Source: Dielma fastidiosa
GTDB lineage: Bacteria; Bacillota_I; Bacilli_A; Erysipelotrichales; Erysipelotrichaceae
Direction: 5' to 3'
Length of the DNA: 64,000 nucleotides
NCBI RefSeq assembly: GCF_000313565.1
Contig: NZ_HE578924.1
Span: forward strand, 46,572-110,571
Position numbers and translations under genes: made by a program. Under the pieces are notes generated by a model. That model made no database searches and was not told the DNA's origin. It saw only the letters and a list, made by a program, of their open reading frames with translations. Numbering within the stretch: position 1 is the first letter of the stretch; each line of letters opens with the position of its first letter. This document shows, one piece after another, positions 8,223 through 37,485 of the stretch.

Positions 8223-9386
8223 TTACCGATAAGATTTTAAATAGATTTCTAAATAATCACTATCTGTTAATGGCAACGGATCAGCCGTAATATCACCGCC
8301 AAGCACTTCATGAATTTTCTGCGGATACAATGACAATTCTTCTTTTGTAATACCTGCATCGCTCATTTTAAGATCATCACAGCCAACAGCAGCAATTAAT
8401 GCATCCAATGCCTTAATAAAATCTTTCCCAGAGGAAGGATTCTCAACACCCATAGCCTTTGCCATCTTTATCATTGGTTCTTCAGCAGCTTTTCTTTCAG
8501 CAAAGAAATCATAATATGCATGAGCCGTCATAATCAGACCGGCACCATGAATTAGATTTTCATGAAAGCTTCCCATAACATGTTCAATAGTATGAGCTGA
8601 AGTACAAAGCATATAGTAAGCAGCAAGCGAATTAGCTAGTGCCATATTTTCACGCGCTTCTTTATTACTTCCATCCTTATATGCAATGGGCAGATATTTA
8701 GCAACTAATTCAATTGCCTTGAGCGCAAACATTTCACCCATCGGATGTTCATTTTTATTAATTACACTTTCAGAAGCATGAAAAAATGTATCCATTCCTT
8801 GATAAGCAGTCAGCGCTGGCGGCACACTCATCATCAATTCAGCATCTACAATAGAGAGTGTTGGAAACATAGACGGGAAGAAAATACCTGTTTTTTCCTT
8901 TAATTCATCATCAGAGATAACAGCGGCAATATCTACTTCACTGCCGGTTCCAGCAGAAGTAGTAATACATACGATAGGCAAAGCCTCAAACTCAGCAATC
9001 TTCTTACCGCCATTTTTACTTAAACTGTAATCCCAGATATCCCCTGGATTTACAGCCATTAACGCGATACACTTACTGCAATCCATGACTGAACCGCCGC
9101 CTAAAGCAACTACGAAATCACAGCTGTTATCTTTGACTGCTTGTGCGCCATCCATAACATTTTTGCGGGTTGGATTCGGTCGAATCTGATCAAATAGAAC
9201 ATACTCCACACCAGCAGCCGTTAGTTCCTTCTGCAGCCGTGATAGATAACCGTATTTCTTTACAGATTGTCCATTCGAAGTAACAATTAATGCTTTTTTA
9301 CCCGGCAGCTTTTCTTCATGCAGATGATTCAGCTGTCCAAATCCAAAAAGCACACGAGTTGGCATGTTAAAAGTAAAGTTATTCAT
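8223..9386 (-). CDS. Iron-containing alcohol dehydrogenase (butanol dehydrogenase-like)
   Basis: 387 residues, normal for group III alcohol dehydrogenases. The NAD(P)-binding half has GGGSVMDCSK (about residues 96-105) and TTSAGTGSEV; the metal site is made by DTFFHA and by His residues in HTIEHVMGSFH and IHGAGL. It interconverts aldehydes or ketones and alcohols with NAD(P)H in the cytoplasm. Length and motifs resemble YqhD/BDH enzymes, which act in aldehyde detoxification. First gene of a three-gene operon; the promoter region carries an operator-like dyad next to the ribosome-binding site. Confidence 0.9.
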   Translation of the reverse strand: MNNFTFNMPTRVLFGFGQLNHLHEEKLPGKKALIVTSNGQSVKKYGYLSRLQKELTAAGVEYVLFDQIRPNPTRKNVMDGAQAVKDNSCDFVVALGGGSVMDCSKCIALMAVNPGDIWDYSLSKNGGKKIAEFEALPIVCITTSAGTGSEVDIAAVISDDELKEKTGIFFPSMFPTLSIVDAELMMSVPPALTAYQGMDTFFHASESVINKNEHPMGEMFALKAIELVAKYLPIAYKDGSNKEARENMALANSLAAYYMLCTSAHTIEHVMGSFHENLIHGAGLIMTAHAYYDFFAERKAAEEPMIKMAKAMGVENPSSGKDFIKALDALIAAVGCDDLKMSDAGITKEELSLYPQKIHEVLGGDITADPLPLTDSDYLEIYLKSYR

Positions 9387-9628: not shown

Positions 9629-10198
9629 TTAGTTGGCTGACAGTTTAGATGTGTTATTTATTTTTTTCTTAAACGGCAGCACTTTAGTGCGGTCCAGCGC
9701 AACCATAATGGCTGGAACAAGTACGAGCTGCAACAGGATACCAGGAACAGCATTCAAGAGCGCCCCACCAATGAATGCCTGTAAGGTAAACGTATTCCCG
9801 ATAATGCCTAAAAGCACACTCTGCACGATACCCCAAACTACACGGCCGGCAATCATTGCAGTAAACAAACAGCAGTATAAGGCTTTGATACACTGCCAGC
9901 GTGATTTTTCATACAGCAAGCCAGCAACAACAGCATATGTTGACAATTCAAAAGCCATTGATAAAGCGGTTGGATATAAAGGCGGCATACCAAATACCAC
10001 ACTGCGTAAAATCGGCAGTACAAAAGCCATTGATAGACCATATTTCCAGCCACAGATCAATGCACACAAGAATACAGGTAAATGCATAGGCAGCAGCATA
10101 CTGCCTAGCTGTGGAATTTGTCCAGTAAATATAGGCAGCACCATACCAATAGCAAGAAACATTGCAGTTAAAGTCATATTTTTCATATTGTTATTCAT
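9629..10198 (-). CDS. ECF transporter substrate-binding (S) component, substrate unknown
   Basis: 189 residues with about six hydrophobic segments and the S-component opening MTLTAMFLAIGMVLP, then LLPMHLPVFLCALICGW, a pattern shared by vitamin-binding S proteins of energy-coupling factor importers. Alanine-rich helices near the N terminus would contact the shared T protein. The ATPase and T subunits are not in this window, as is usual for group II ECF systems that share a module. No riboswitch is apparent in the 63 bases upstream, so the vitamin cannot be named. Confidence 0.8.
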   Translation of the reverse strand: MNNNMKNMTLTAMFLAIGMVLPIFTGQIPQLGSMLLPMHLPVFLCALICGWKYGLSMAFVLPILRSVVFGMPPLYPTALSMAFELSTYAVVAGLLYEKSRWQCIKALYCCLFTAMIAGRVVWGIVQSVLLGIIGNTFTLQAFIGGALLNAVPGILLQLVLVPAIMVALDRTKVLPFKKKINNTSKLSAN

Positions 10199-22240: not shown

Positions 22241-22265
22241 CGTATCACCATGCACATTATAAAAC

Positions 22266-22443
22266 AAAAGAAGCGTCAGGGGAAACGCTTCTTTTGCTAA
22301 TTATTATTTATAAGGGGATAGAATATGAATGAAACTAGATTAGGGATTGTCTATTTTCATTAGGCAAGTTCTTTTCCTTGCCTGATAATACTATACCCTA
22401 AGTCTATCAATAAAATACATGAGAACTATGTTTTTTTATGTGA
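22266..22443. repeat. Tandem structured element, copy 1 (178 bp)
   Basis: Nearly identical to 22465-22639 (about 95% by eye, with 2- and 1-base indels). It opens with a hairpin AAGAAGCGT ... ACGCTTCTT, which reads as a terminator on the minus strand. On the plus strand a long-range stem GGGGATAG (22314-22321) with CTATACCC (22391-22398) encloses two hairpins: ATGAAA/TTTCAT extended by TAGA/TCTA (22329-22360) and AGGCAAG/CTTGCCT (22362-22383). Within it lies a micro-ORF, ATG 22325 to TAG 22363 (MNETRLGIVYFH), seven bases after GGGG. It ends near ACAT-N7-ATGTTTTTTT, a weak terminator. Not a family I recognise. Confidence 0.75.
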
Positions 22444-22464
22444 TATGAAAAAAATCCGCAAAGT

Positions 22465-22639
22465 AAAAGAAGCGTCAGGGGAAACGCTTCTTCTACTAAA
22501 TTATTTATAAGGGGATAGAATATGAATGAAACTAGATTAGGGATTGTCTATTTTCATCGGCAAGTTCTTTTCCTTGCCTGATAATACTATACCCCAAGTC
22601 TATCAATAAAATACATGAAAACTATGTTTTTTTATGTGA
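22465..22639. repeat. Tandem structured element, copy 2 (175 bp)
   Basis: Second copy, offset 199 bases from the first, separated by a 21-base spacer. All pairing parts are kept: GGGGATAG (22511-22518) with CTATACCCC (22587-22595). A G-U pair of copy 1 becomes G-C here, which preserves the closing stem. The micro-ORF (22522-22581) shares its first 12 residues with copy 1 but reads on to 19 residues ending VLFLA because the TAG is replaced by CGG. On the minus strand its AAGAAGCGT hairpin could end the DUF4097 operon. Confidence 0.75.
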
Positions 22640-22644
22640 ATCAA

Positions 22645-23691
22645 TTATTTCGTGAATGCCAGTTTGGCGTTGCTGTAGTCAAGCATCAAATCAAGCTCAT
22701 ATTTTGCACCCTCTCTATACTGAGAACTTATATTGGCATCACCATGAGTTACCACAGCATTGGTTGAATATTCATCCTCAGCACCCTTTAATGTACCTTC
22801 TACATCACCATGGCGCAGATCCACATAAATTGACTGAACATCATTATCCTGCAGCTGCAGATTGACATAGTTGCCATCTACGCAAAGACCCGCCATGGAT
22901 GAGGTTTTGATTTTGACATCTTCATGAGCCATAATGATATTGACCTGTTCGGCAAACTTACTATCCGCGATCGTTAAGGAGCTGTAATTAAAATCATTTC
23001 TCATTAAATCAGCTTCTACATTTGACATCTCAACACTGCCATGGCTGCTGCTAATCCTTAAGTCTTCACTAATCTTTAGCGTATCATATTCACTTTCCAT
23101 ATACCCATCCTCTATACTCAATGATTCGCATTGGAAGTTTTCAAGAACTGATTTGCCATGTGCGAATTGCAGACTAACACTCTCAGCATCAATTGACGTC
23201 AGCCAACAATCACCATATTTATAATCTACCGTAAACATACTTAATGATTGTAAATCCTTAATTTGTGCATCACCATGACTGCCATTAACCGCAAGCACGC
23301 CTTGAAAAGCTTTCGGCACCTGTATCGTAACAACCGTATCCTCGCGATCTGTAATGGTAAACCAATTCATCAGCTTCAGCACTGATTTCTTTTCAAGATC
23401 AATTCGATTACTTGTAACATTTAAATTATATTGTAAGGATTCACTTTCCGGATAAGTAATAACAAAATCATCCGTCGGCGAAGTTTCAATCACTAAATCG
23501 CTGTATGATACAGAAACCGTCAATTTTCTGATTTCATCCAACGGTATGGTTTTCGTCCGATAAACAACCTCTTCATCAATGACGGTACTCAGCTTGTATA
23601 CATCAAAATCCACTGATGCAAAACCACCCAGAATCAGCAGCAGCCCTGCTGAAATCAGCATTAAACTGATTTGCTTTATCATTTTAATCAT
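22645..23691 (-). CDS. DUF4097 family beta-helix-like surface protein
   Basis: 348 residues from ATG 23691, whose ATGA overlaps the stop of the upstream gene. Residues 5-25 form a hydrophobic signal anchor (ISLMLISAGLLLILGGF). The rest is a series of short beta-strand repeats with recurring Gly-Asp-Val/His-Gly-Asp turns (SHGDAQI, RHGDVEG, THGDANI), the DUF4097 pattern of a putative adhesin-like beta solenoid. In many Bacillota it follows PadR and DUF1700 genes, exactly as here, in envelope-stress type operons. Molecular role unknown. Confidence 0.85.
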   Translation of the reverse strand: MIKMIKQISLMLISAGLLLILGGFASVDFDVYKLSTVIDEEVVYRTKTIPLDEIRKLTVSVSYSDLVIETSPTDDFVITYPESESLQYNLNVTSNRIDLEKKSVLKLMNWFTITDREDTVVTIQVPKAFQGVLAVNGSHGDAQIKDLQSLSMFTVDYKYGDCWLTSIDAESVSLQFAHGKSVLENFQCESLSIEDGYMESEYDTLKISEDLRISSSHGSVEMSNVEADLMRNDFNYSSLTIADSKFAEQVNIIMAHEDVKIKTSSMAGLCVDGNYVNLQLQDNDVQSIYVDLRHGDVEGTLKGAEDEYSTNAVVTHGDANISSQYREGAKYELDLMLDYSNAKLAFTK

Positions 23692-24269
23692 GCTTTCACC
23701 GCCTTCTGCCATTGGCTCAAACACCAGCCAGGCATGCTTTTACAACAATTCACAAAGGTTGGCGTCCATGCTTTAAAGCCAAACCAGCACCATGGGGCCA
23801 ACCCGATGCTGAGCAGCACTGTCCCAGTCAAAACAACAAAAGATGGGAAATTGACACTATATACACTTGGCATTAAGAAGATTCCGCAGACCGCCATAAT
23901 CAAAAAGCAAAGGCCAAAAACAAGCAGGATCACCAGCAATAAGCCCCATACCAACAAGAGAATCAAAAGTATAACAGGAATCATCAGCCAGATTGGTGAT
24001 GTTAAGACGATCAGAAACCATTTCACAGCACAAGGTATGATATTTGTACGTTTATCTTTCTCAATTGGCTCCTCTTTAATTTCATCATACAGATTCAGCG
24101 ACAATTCATCCAAGCCATCCAGACTCGCCACTGCATCCTCCTCACTCATTCCCTCTTCGATACGATCCTCTAACGCTTCATTATAAAAGTTAATGAGACG
24201 ATGTCTTTCCGATAAGGGAAGCAGTTTGATCCGCTGCTCAAGCAGCTGCATAAATTCCTGCTTATTCAT
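23688..24269 (-). CDS. DUF1700/HAAS-domain membrane protein
   Basis: 193 residues from ATG 24269, eight bases after AGGAGG. The N-terminal 70 residues are the HAAS helical domain (MNKQEFMQLLEQRI, then LINFYNEALEDRIEEGMSEEDAVASL), which is thought to interact with the PadR partner. Residues ~90-180 contain three to four membrane helices. It overlaps the PadR stop by eight bases and the DUF4097 start by four, giving a tightly coupled operon. Probably an anti-repressor or membrane sensor for PadR, by analogy with related systems. Confidence 0.85.
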   Translation of the reverse strand: MNKQEFMQLLEQRIKLLPLSERHRLINFYNEALEDRIEEGMSEEDAVASLDGLDELSLNLYDEIKEEPIEKDKRTNIIPCAVKWFLIVLTSPIWLMIPVILLILLLVWGLLLVILLVFGLCFLIMAVCGIFLMPSVYSVNFPSFVVLTGTVLLSIGLAPWCWFGFKAWTPTFVNCCKSMPGWCLSQWQKAVKA

Positions 24270-24579
24270 TTTCATTTCCTCCTTTGATGTACTCATAAAT
24301 ATTCATAATCTGATCCCAGTCTTCAAGAAATTCATCGATGCGCTCTCTTCCCTTTACGGTCAGATGATAATACTTTCTTAATCTGCCATTATGTTCCATA
24401 GTATAAACCTTCAGACATTCACTGCTCTCAAGCCGTCTTAGAATCGGATACAAAGTCGATTCAGAAATGGCAACACAGACAGATAAATCTTTAATGATTT
24501 GATACCCATAGGAATCATTCTTCTTCAAAGAGGCAAGTACACAAATCTCAATCAAGCCTTTTTTTAATTGTATGTCCAT
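24262..24579 (-). CDS. PadR-family transcriptional regulator
   Basis: 105 residues, the short PadR form. It starts MDIQLKKGLIEICVLASL and has the PadR signature DSYGYQIIKDLS followed by ISESTLYPILRRLE and a wing with GRLRKYYHLT. These are dimeric winged-helix repressors. AAGGAGG lies seven bases upstream. First gene of the PadR-DUF1700-DUF4097 operon; a TATGCAA-N11-TTGCATA palindrome lies over its promoter and is the likely binding site, so the operon probably represses itself. Confidence 0.92.
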   Translation of the reverse strand: MDIQLKKGLIEICVLASLKKNDSYGYQIIKDLSVCVAISESTLYPILRRLESSECLKVYTMEHNGRLRKYYHLTVKGRERIDEFLEDWDQIMNIYEYIKGGNENE

Positions 24580-36404: not shown

Positions 36405-37250
36405 CTACTGCGGCATTTTGGCTTGTGCCTGCGTCAGCATTTCCTGACGTGTTTCCGTTGGTATTTCAGCCAGCGCGGCATTTACCTGATCCAGCAAAGC
36501 CGTGTCTTCTTTGCGTAATCCAATGCAGGCCCCGTTAAAGCCTAACTCAAAACCCTGTCCATCAGGAAAAGAAATCGTTACTAAATTAGGATAGACGTTC
36601 GTATAAGCAACCGCTGATTCAGTATCTAAAACAATACCGTCAGCCGCTCCCTGATTCAGACGGGCAATCATATTTGCCACATCAGTGACCGGCGGCAGAT
36701 GATCGACACCCTCGATTTGATCGATTACTTCATCATATTTAGTATTTTTCTGACCTAAAAGACTGGCACCGGCAAAATCACTGAGTGAATCAGCTTCCGC
36801 GTAGGATGAATTTTCATCAACCACAATCATATACTCAGTTTTACGAACTGAATAGAAATCAGAGAAATTCACTGATTGACGGCGATCCTCGGTATCTGCC
36901 ATACCTGCAATGACCATGTCGATCTGACCGCTTTTTAATGAATCAATCAAACCGTCCCAGCTCAGCTTAACAATTACGATTTCCGCATCCAATGCCTCCC
37001 CAATCTGTTTTGCCATCTGCACATCATAACCCTCCGCATAAAAGCCTGACACATTTTCAATCGGCAGATTTGTATCACTGGCCTGATCCTCCTGCCAATT
37101 ATTCGGCGCATAGGCACATTCCATTCCTACCCGCAATACATTTTGATTATCCATGTCATTAGCCGGTGCATCATTACTGCCGCAGGCGGCAAGCGTACAC
37201 AGCATCATGGACAACAAACCAAATCCAATAAAACTTCTAAAATATTTCAT
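36405..37250 (-). CDS. Amino-acid ABC importer binding lipoprotein (lysine type by riboswitch)
   Basis: 281 residues from ATG 37250, seven bases after AGGAGG. The signal sequence ends with lipobox LAAC (Cys23). Family 3 solute-binding fold: VGMECAYAPNNWQE at the N lobe, GYDVQMAKQIGEAL, and DMVIAGMADTEDRRQSVNFSDFY in outline, ending FNGACIGLRKED. It captures an amino acid outside the membrane and hands it to the permease. First gene after a lysine riboswitch with a terminator, so expression should fall when lysine is plentiful. Confidence 0.88.
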   Translation of the reverse strand: MKYFRSFIGFGLLSMMLCTLAACGSNDAPANDMDNQNVLRVGMECAYAPNNWQEDQASDTNLPIENVSGFYAEGYDVQMAKQIGEALDAEIVIVKLSWDGLIDSLKSGQIDMVIAGMADTEDRRQSVNFSDFYSVRKTEYMIVVDENSSYAEADSLSDFAGASLLGQKNTKYDEVIDQIEGVDHLPPVTDVANMIARLNQGAADGIVLDTESAVAYTNVYPNLVTISFPDGQGFELGFNGACIGLRKEDTALLDQVNAALAEIPTETRQEMLTQAQAKMPQ

Positions 37251-37272
37251 ATTCTGATCCTCCTGTATAAAA

Positions 37273-37297
37273 TAAAAAACGTCTTTGGTAAAAGACG
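37273..37297 (-). terminator. Riboswitch-controlled terminator
   Basis: On the minus strand CGTCTTT and AAAGACG form a 7-bp stem with a 4-nt loop followed by six T residues, between the aptamer and the binding-protein start. Confidence 0.8.
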
Positions 37298-37317
37298 CTT
37301 CACAATAGTTTCTATCG

Positions 37318-37485
37318 TAAAACAAAGCGCCTCTACAATAAATGTAGGAATCCTATGAGTATTTCCCATAGTCTCACACAAGCATAATGCCTTATCCTCA
37401 TGTTCGGCGATGGCTGCCTTTCCATTTGATCACAGGATGCCTCCTCACAAATGTACTCTTCTACATCGCTACCTCTTGTTTTTTA
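37318..37485 (-). ncRNA. Lysine riboswitch (L box) aptamer
   Basis: The minus strand shows the L-box core in order: AGAGGTAGCG, GAAGAGTAC, TGTGAGGAGGC, GGAAAGGCAGCC followed by CGCCGAA, then the GGGAAATACTC arm and GTAGAGGCGC at the 3' side. The ends AAAACAAG and CTTTGTTTT pair as the closing P1 stem. A terminator hairpin follows. Lysine binding would favour termination. Confidence 0.88.

Follow-up and report, generated by a model that had tools for sequence, protein, structure and literature searches.

Two putative tandem small RNA genes of Dielma fastidiosa belong to a csRNA/LhrC-like family in Erysipelotrichaceae

Introduction

The csRNAs of Streptococcus are Cia-dependent small RNAs (sRNAs) that act against ribosome-binding sites, and their promoters carry the CiaR repeat NTTAAG-N5-TTTAAG 10 bp before the -10 box (PMC3091779). 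In Listeria, LhrC1-5, Rli22 and Rli33-1 are LisRK-controlled sRNAs that block ribosome-binding sites (PMC4132741, PMC8079631). Erysipelotrichaceae are a common family of bacteria in the gut. Our literature searches for sRNAs of this family or of C. innocuum returned nothing relevant, and no regulatory sRNA described from the family came to light. We analyzed a 64,000-nucleotide stretch of the Dielma fastidiosa genome (contig NZ_HE578924.1, positions 46,572 to 110,571; hereafter the window). Two tandem units in the window are, in our reading, very probably minus-strand genes for trans-acting sRNAs of about 120 nt, driven by an activator and using (U)CCC motifs to block ribosome-binding sites, and members of a family that extends across Erysipelotrichaceae.

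Results

Organization of the tandem units

A preliminary description of the locus had reported two near-identical copies between a CpXC and a DUF4097 gene, and both points were confirmed. The duplicate units, at 22261-22443 and 22460-22639, are about 98% identical and offset by 196-199 bp, with identity blocks of 81 nt (98%), 58 nt (100%) and 40 nt (90%). Both flanking genes, CpXC (PF14353) and DUF4097 (PF13349), lie on the minus strand. On that strand each unit, too, is laid out as a gene, with a regulator box TCACATAA.., a -10 box, an RNA of about 120 nt and a terminator hairpin. The RNA comprises hairpin A, hairpin B and an unpaired CAU...UCUAUCCCCUUAU stretch (hereafter the linear stretch), followed by the terminator hairpin. 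In the window copies, unpaired (U)CCC runs occur in the loops of hairpin B and of the terminator and also in the linear stretch. The features are listed below.

22624..22639, minus strand: regulator box of copy 2, TCACATAAAAAAACAT, upstream of the gene; a direct repeat with a 10-bp period at about -60 to -45, from a fixed-spacing promoter pattern search of the D. fastidiosa genome and the family-wide box at -60
22586..22591, minus strand: -10 box of copy 2, TATAGT, from the promoter pattern search and the family-wide promoter comparison
22459..22579, minus strand: sRNA of copy 2, putative start near 22579 and putative end near 22459, from the covariance model match given below and the terminator
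22559..22578, minus strand: hairpin A of copy 2, GGCAAG-GAAAAGAA-CTTGCC, from the fold and covariation in helix 1
22525..22558, minus strand: hairpin B of copy 2, loop CAAUCCCUAA, from the fold and covariation in helices 2-6
22501..22524, minus strand: unpaired anti-Shine-Dalgarno/anti-AUG stretch of copy 2, CAUAUUCUAUCCCCUUAUAAAUAA, from conservation and a CCCC unpaired probability of at least 0.98
22462..22497, minus strand: terminator hairpin of copy 2, loop UCCCCU, from sequence comparison, hairpin scan and fold
22428..22443, minus strand: regulator box of copy 1, TCACATAAAAAAACAT, from the promoter pattern search and the family-wide box
22390..22395, minus strand: -10 box of copy 1, TATAGT, from the promoter pattern search and the family-wide promoter comparison
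22260..22383, minus strand: sRNA of copy 1, putative start near 22383 and putative end near 22260, from the covariance model match given below and the terminator
22362..22383, minus strand: hairpin A of copy 1, from covariation and the fold
22328..22361, minus strand: hairpin B of copy 1, loop CAAUCCCUAA, from covariation and the fold
22304..22327, minus strand: unpaired anti-Shine-Dalgarno/anti-AUG stretch of copy 1, CAUAUUCUAUCCCCUUAUAAAUAA, from conservation and the fold
22265..22296, minus strand: terminator hairpin of copy 1, loop UCCCCU; here the plus strand resembles a terminator as well

The covariance model R1, built from the minus-strand core with promoter and terminator left out, matched copy 2 at 22501-22579 (79.1 bits, E 1.2e-16) and copy 1 at 22304-22383 (88.9 bits, E 5.5e-19), the E-values coming from a short calibration. 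Upstream of the sRNA pair, a minus-strand gene group at 22645-24579 of the window encodes, judged by sequence, a DUF4097 protein, a HAAS-like membrane protein and a PadR-like regulator. Gene groups of this type are often tied to envelope stress.

Strand and covariation

The preliminary description had drawn a three-way junction on the plus strand. That strand does fold well (MFE -32.2 and -31.4 kcal/mol, z about -2.6 against shuffled sequence), slightly better than the minus strand of the two window copies (z -2.1 and -2.3), and the two hairpins can form on both. Because both strands fold better than shuffles, folding of the two copies alone does not decide the strand. Free-fold comparison of both strands, in which the antisense was slightly better with more G-U pairs, was likewise uninformative, and a test of internal mismatches was therefore used in its place. 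Single mismatches inside helices, read on the minus strand, were G-U 27 times and A-C 4 times, an excess that agrees with the prediction for a minus-strand RNA.

Since MAFFT alignments of the copies gave no consensus fold, a structural alignment registered by hand was used. The covariation score over 119 distinct copies was 0.692, in comparison with 0.171 for shuffled sequence and 0.04-0.07 for slid partners; two-sided changes were found at 22 of 22 pairs and 83% of cells were paired. The absolute scores lean towards the model, because the alignment was fitted to it, and many of the copies are related and non-independent.

The check for compensatory changes proposed earlier succeeded for the core stems of the minus strand and failed for the plus-strand closing stem GGGGATAG/CTATACCC(C), whose pairing over 121 relatives did not exceed that obtained after shuffling the upstream sequence. 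On the plus strand the partners of this stem are the complement of the anti-Shine-Dalgarno stretch and -10 promoter DNA, and the paired region takes in the conserved minus-strand promoter. The G-U to G-C change, cited earlier as preserving the stem, is a single difference between two tandem copies and is uninformative by itself. The micro-ORFs MNETRLGIVYFH (12 residues) and MNETRLGIVYFHRQVLFLA (19 residues) do exist in the window; they are not conserved, the start codon being absent in 49 of 121 relatives and ORF length varying between 1 and 50 codons. No conserved peptide was found, which leaves the proposed peptide-encoding RNA unsupported. In the earlier reading, "GGGG + ATG" marked a ribosome-binding site followed by a micro-ORF; it is complementary to the minus-strand anti-Shine-Dalgarno/anti-AUG stretch. 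For all its slightly better fold, a plus-strand structured RNA with a three-way junction closed by this stem, with or without a peptide, is extremely unlikely. On the comparative evidence, the functional strand of both units is the minus strand; of the options offered in the preliminary description, the small-RNA gene pair was the right one, on the opposite strand.

Promoter, regulator and terminator

The promoters were examined in the 90 bases upstream of the core, which R1 does not see. The regulator box was present in 114 of 120 copies, where shuffling predicts 4.9 and no shuffle exceeded 12, and the -10 box in 102 of 120, against 38 expected from shuffles. The conserved box is TCACATAATTTNACAT, of the form TCACAT-N4-TNACAT, about 32 bp before the -10 box, and in most copies it starts 57-61 nt before the RNA. 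The fixed-spacing pattern of box and -10 had eight matches in the D. fastidiosa genome and none in the reversed control; the box pattern occurred in 89 of 273 family genomes, the reversed control in 0. Among box sites without an R1 match, several precede divergent versions of the sRNA, and others precede protein genes or nothing evident. At the other end of the gene, a T-tailed hairpin follows directly after the core in 119 of 121 copies. In one relative (L031:1300-1510) the terminator hairpin was lost, as if sequence had been inserted after the first terminator arm.

A DNA-binding activator probably turns on both sRNA promoters. It would bind the direct repeat TCACATAATTTNACAT(AATT..ACATAATT), which lies between about 60 and 30 bp ahead of the start, with one promoter per gene, from which each sRNA would be transcribed. 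Since the box is a direct repeat, the activator is most likely a response regulator of the OmpR/PhoB type. Phosphate (Pho/pst) control was considered because of the TTNACA-type repeats. It was rejected, the pstS-like loci being without the box: near pstS-like genes of 20 genomes the best box score was 5.9, in comparison with a median of 28.9 at sRNA promoters.

Some box sites lie before protein genes. The box with its -10 spacing precedes a gene for a protein with a zinc-ribbon domain and a membrane segment (L039:1440-1560; G000:C5:65499-65553), a candidate member of the regulon. A box and -10 with three mismatches, at 2862-2947 of the window, lies before a diacylglycerol/lipid kinase-like gene starting MNRRVLIIVNPHAGKG, another possible member. 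In two genera (L135 and L136, at about 1500) the box stands directly before TATAAT and a gene for a similar membrane protein of about 185 aa without a Pfam match, possibly a conserved protein target of the regulator.

Comparison with described sRNA families

The Rfam scan agreed with the preliminary description in that no Rfam 15 family reached its gathering score in the element. The best match, on the minus strand, was csRNA (RF02379; 34.4 bits, E 0.008); scores of 34.4 bits in the window and 38.3 bits in relative L007 did not reach the csRNA gathering score of 57. Like csRNAs, the Erysipelotrichaceae sRNAs are multicopy, have a direct-repeat regulator site and, between their stem-loops, an unpaired region with anti-Shine-Dalgarno and anti-AUG (CAU) sequence that the terminator follows directly. 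This succession of an unpaired anti-Shine-Dalgarno/anti-AUG region and a terminator, by which csRNAs are recognized, was found in the Erysipelotrichaceae sRNA. The promoters differ, however: in place of the CiaR repeat, the Erysipelotrichaceae ones have TCACAT-N4-TNACAT, some 32 bp ahead of the -10 box.

LhrC sRNAs are also multicopy and partly clustered, are 105-121 nt long, are built of a hairpin, a single-stranded stretch and a terminator, and have a response-regulator-dependent promoter element at about -55 to -75 (PMC4132741, PMC8079631), a position similar to that of our box. The three-site layout of LhrC is common to the window copies, although a CCC run downstream was found in only 43 of 121 relatives. 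In contrast to LhrC, the Erysipelotrichaceae sRNA has an extra 5' hairpin A, and the Rfam LhrC model had no match in the window by cmscan up to E 10. RsaE/RoxS (RF01820), also a C-rich anti-Shine-Dalgarno sRNA of Firmicutes, gave a weak cmscan match of 22.1 bits (gathering score, 79). To our knowledge, RsaE/RoxS has a different promoter and forms no such tandem family.

Given the predicted csRNA/LhrC-like action, the sub-threshold csRNA score, the non-CiaR promoter and the lack of an LhrC match, we classify these sRNAs as a new family of the csRNA/LhrC-like kind, without assigning them to either. After csRNA and LhrC, they are the third apparent case in which Firmicutes use C-rich anti-ribosome-site sRNAs that are multicopy and tandem and carry a regulator site of their own. 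Should the regulators turn out to be unrelated, this would bear on convergent evolution.

Distribution

R1 matched 102 of 273 family genomes in 29 of 60 genera of Erysipelotrichaceae, with 1-5 copies per genome, often in tandem; under the strict filters, over half of the genomes had no R1 match. Carriers include a Traorella metagenome-assembled genome. Outside the family there was one marginal match in the order (G313), which was without box and hairpin A, and two in the class sample (G559, G634). A DNA search of the D. fastidiosa genome and its relatives, suggested in the preliminary description, yielded further copies in both: 31 of the 273 Erysipelotrichaceae genomes were matched at the DNA level, and in D. 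fastidiosa itself copies were found at C1:420828-421035 and C1:421791-421866. These fall in a second cluster of the same genome (L005:6800-9910; G000:C1:418800-421990), which has R1 matches at 8875-8955 and 9841-9902. It also contains two or three copies that are more divergent; one of them, at about 9204-9320, combines hairpin A with a CCCC loop and a terminator of its own.

Across the copies the minus-strand order was fixed: the TCACATAATTT.ACAT box, the -10 box, hairpin A, hairpin B, UUCUAUCCCCUUAUAAAUAA and the terminator. Judged by these comparisons, the sRNA family is spread over Erysipelotrichaceae, was previously unlisted and is scarcely present outside. A mobile or repeat element of the REP/MITE type, duplicated by chance, would also give several copies per genome, and the preliminary description had listed it as an option. 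It finds no support in a copy number of only 1-5, the fixed promoter and terminator anatomy and the strong covariation; the plasmids searched gave no match, and the one exact seed match in viral contigs was an ordinary ribosome-binding site. We regard a mobile element as scarcely credible. With the promoter box, the covariance model and comparative data from at least 29 genera at hand, the regulator and targets of the sRNA family can be sought directly.

Gene context

The neighbours of the sRNA genes comprised 185 proteins in 112 clusters. The next gene was on the same strand in 53 of 94 relatives and on the opposite strand in 41. Such varied neighbours without fixed orientation fit a free-standing, trans-acting RNA. 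A cis-acting element, either a leader or an attenuator of the gene downstream (CpXC in the window), with the terminator as a regulated attenuator, would be consistent with the 53 same-strand genes, with CpXC lying downstream on the same strand in the window and with CpXC-like neighbours in five loci. However, in the other four CpXC loci the gene is on the upstream side, the opposite-strand genes and the many clusters do not suit a leader, and each tandem copy has its own promoter and terminator, so that this arrangement is very unlikely. About 16 loci have a XerC/D-like recombinase gene on the upstream side of the sRNA; with this gene and the adjoining CpXC-like genes recurring, some synteny persists between genera.

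Predicted targets and mode of action

In both window RNAs, the UCCC/CCCC runs were unpaired with a probability of at least 0.98 at all three sites. A C-rich run in the hairpin B region was found in 109 of 121 copies (45 in shuffles), and CCCC in the linear stretch, the most conserved block of the family, in 115 of 121. Reasoning from the csRNA and LhrC work, the sRNAs most likely act by pairing with ribosome-binding sites and repressing translation. In the predicted fold, a hairpin at the 5' end of the RNA is followed by a second one, and an unpaired stretch separates the latter from the terminator. The (U)CCC motifs of the RNA, presented in the loop of hairpin B, in the linear stretch and, for the window copies, in the terminator loop as well, would pair with the Shine-Dalgarno and start-codon regions of target mRNAs; ribosome binding would be blocked and translation of the targets repressed, as with csRNAs and LhrC.

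Short loop motifs repeated in several copies would also fit a titrating RNA, one that binds, or acts as a sponge for, a CsrA-like protein or an RNA chaperone instead of pairing with mRNA. The conserved motif, however, is C-rich and complementary to Shine-Dalgarno/AUG sequence rather than GGA, and the GGA in hairpin A is not conserved. Conservation of the linear stretch extends beyond the C-run, as expected of a sequence directed against initiation regions, and we consider a sponge very improbable in comparison with pairing to mRNA.

Pairing of the linear stretch was calculated for 61 window genes, with starts picked by Shine-Dalgarno strength. The mean energy was -11.7 kcal/mol for start regions and -6.0 kcal/mol for coding regions; for the reversed linear stretch on the same 61 genes it was -8.9 and -5.3 kcal/mol. 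Because the reversed control also prefers start regions, part, though not all, of the start-region signal is due to composition. In the D. fastidiosa genome the exact complement TAAGGGGATAGAA occurred only at sRNA genes, and its one-mismatch sites included no convincing start regions; a conserved single target recognized through the exact seed complement was rejected, none being found in that genome. An unlikely reading is that the multicopy RNA is the main output of a family-wide, activator-dependent regulon and, having as many as three anti-Shine-Dalgarno faces with complementarity to initiation regions in general, serves as a broad brake on translation, triggered by stress, instead of controlling a few targets. 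A lysine riboswitch was noted at 37250-37485 of the window on the minus strand, and the gene after it had the strongest predicted start-region pairing with the linear stretch among the window genes (-22.6 kcal/mol).
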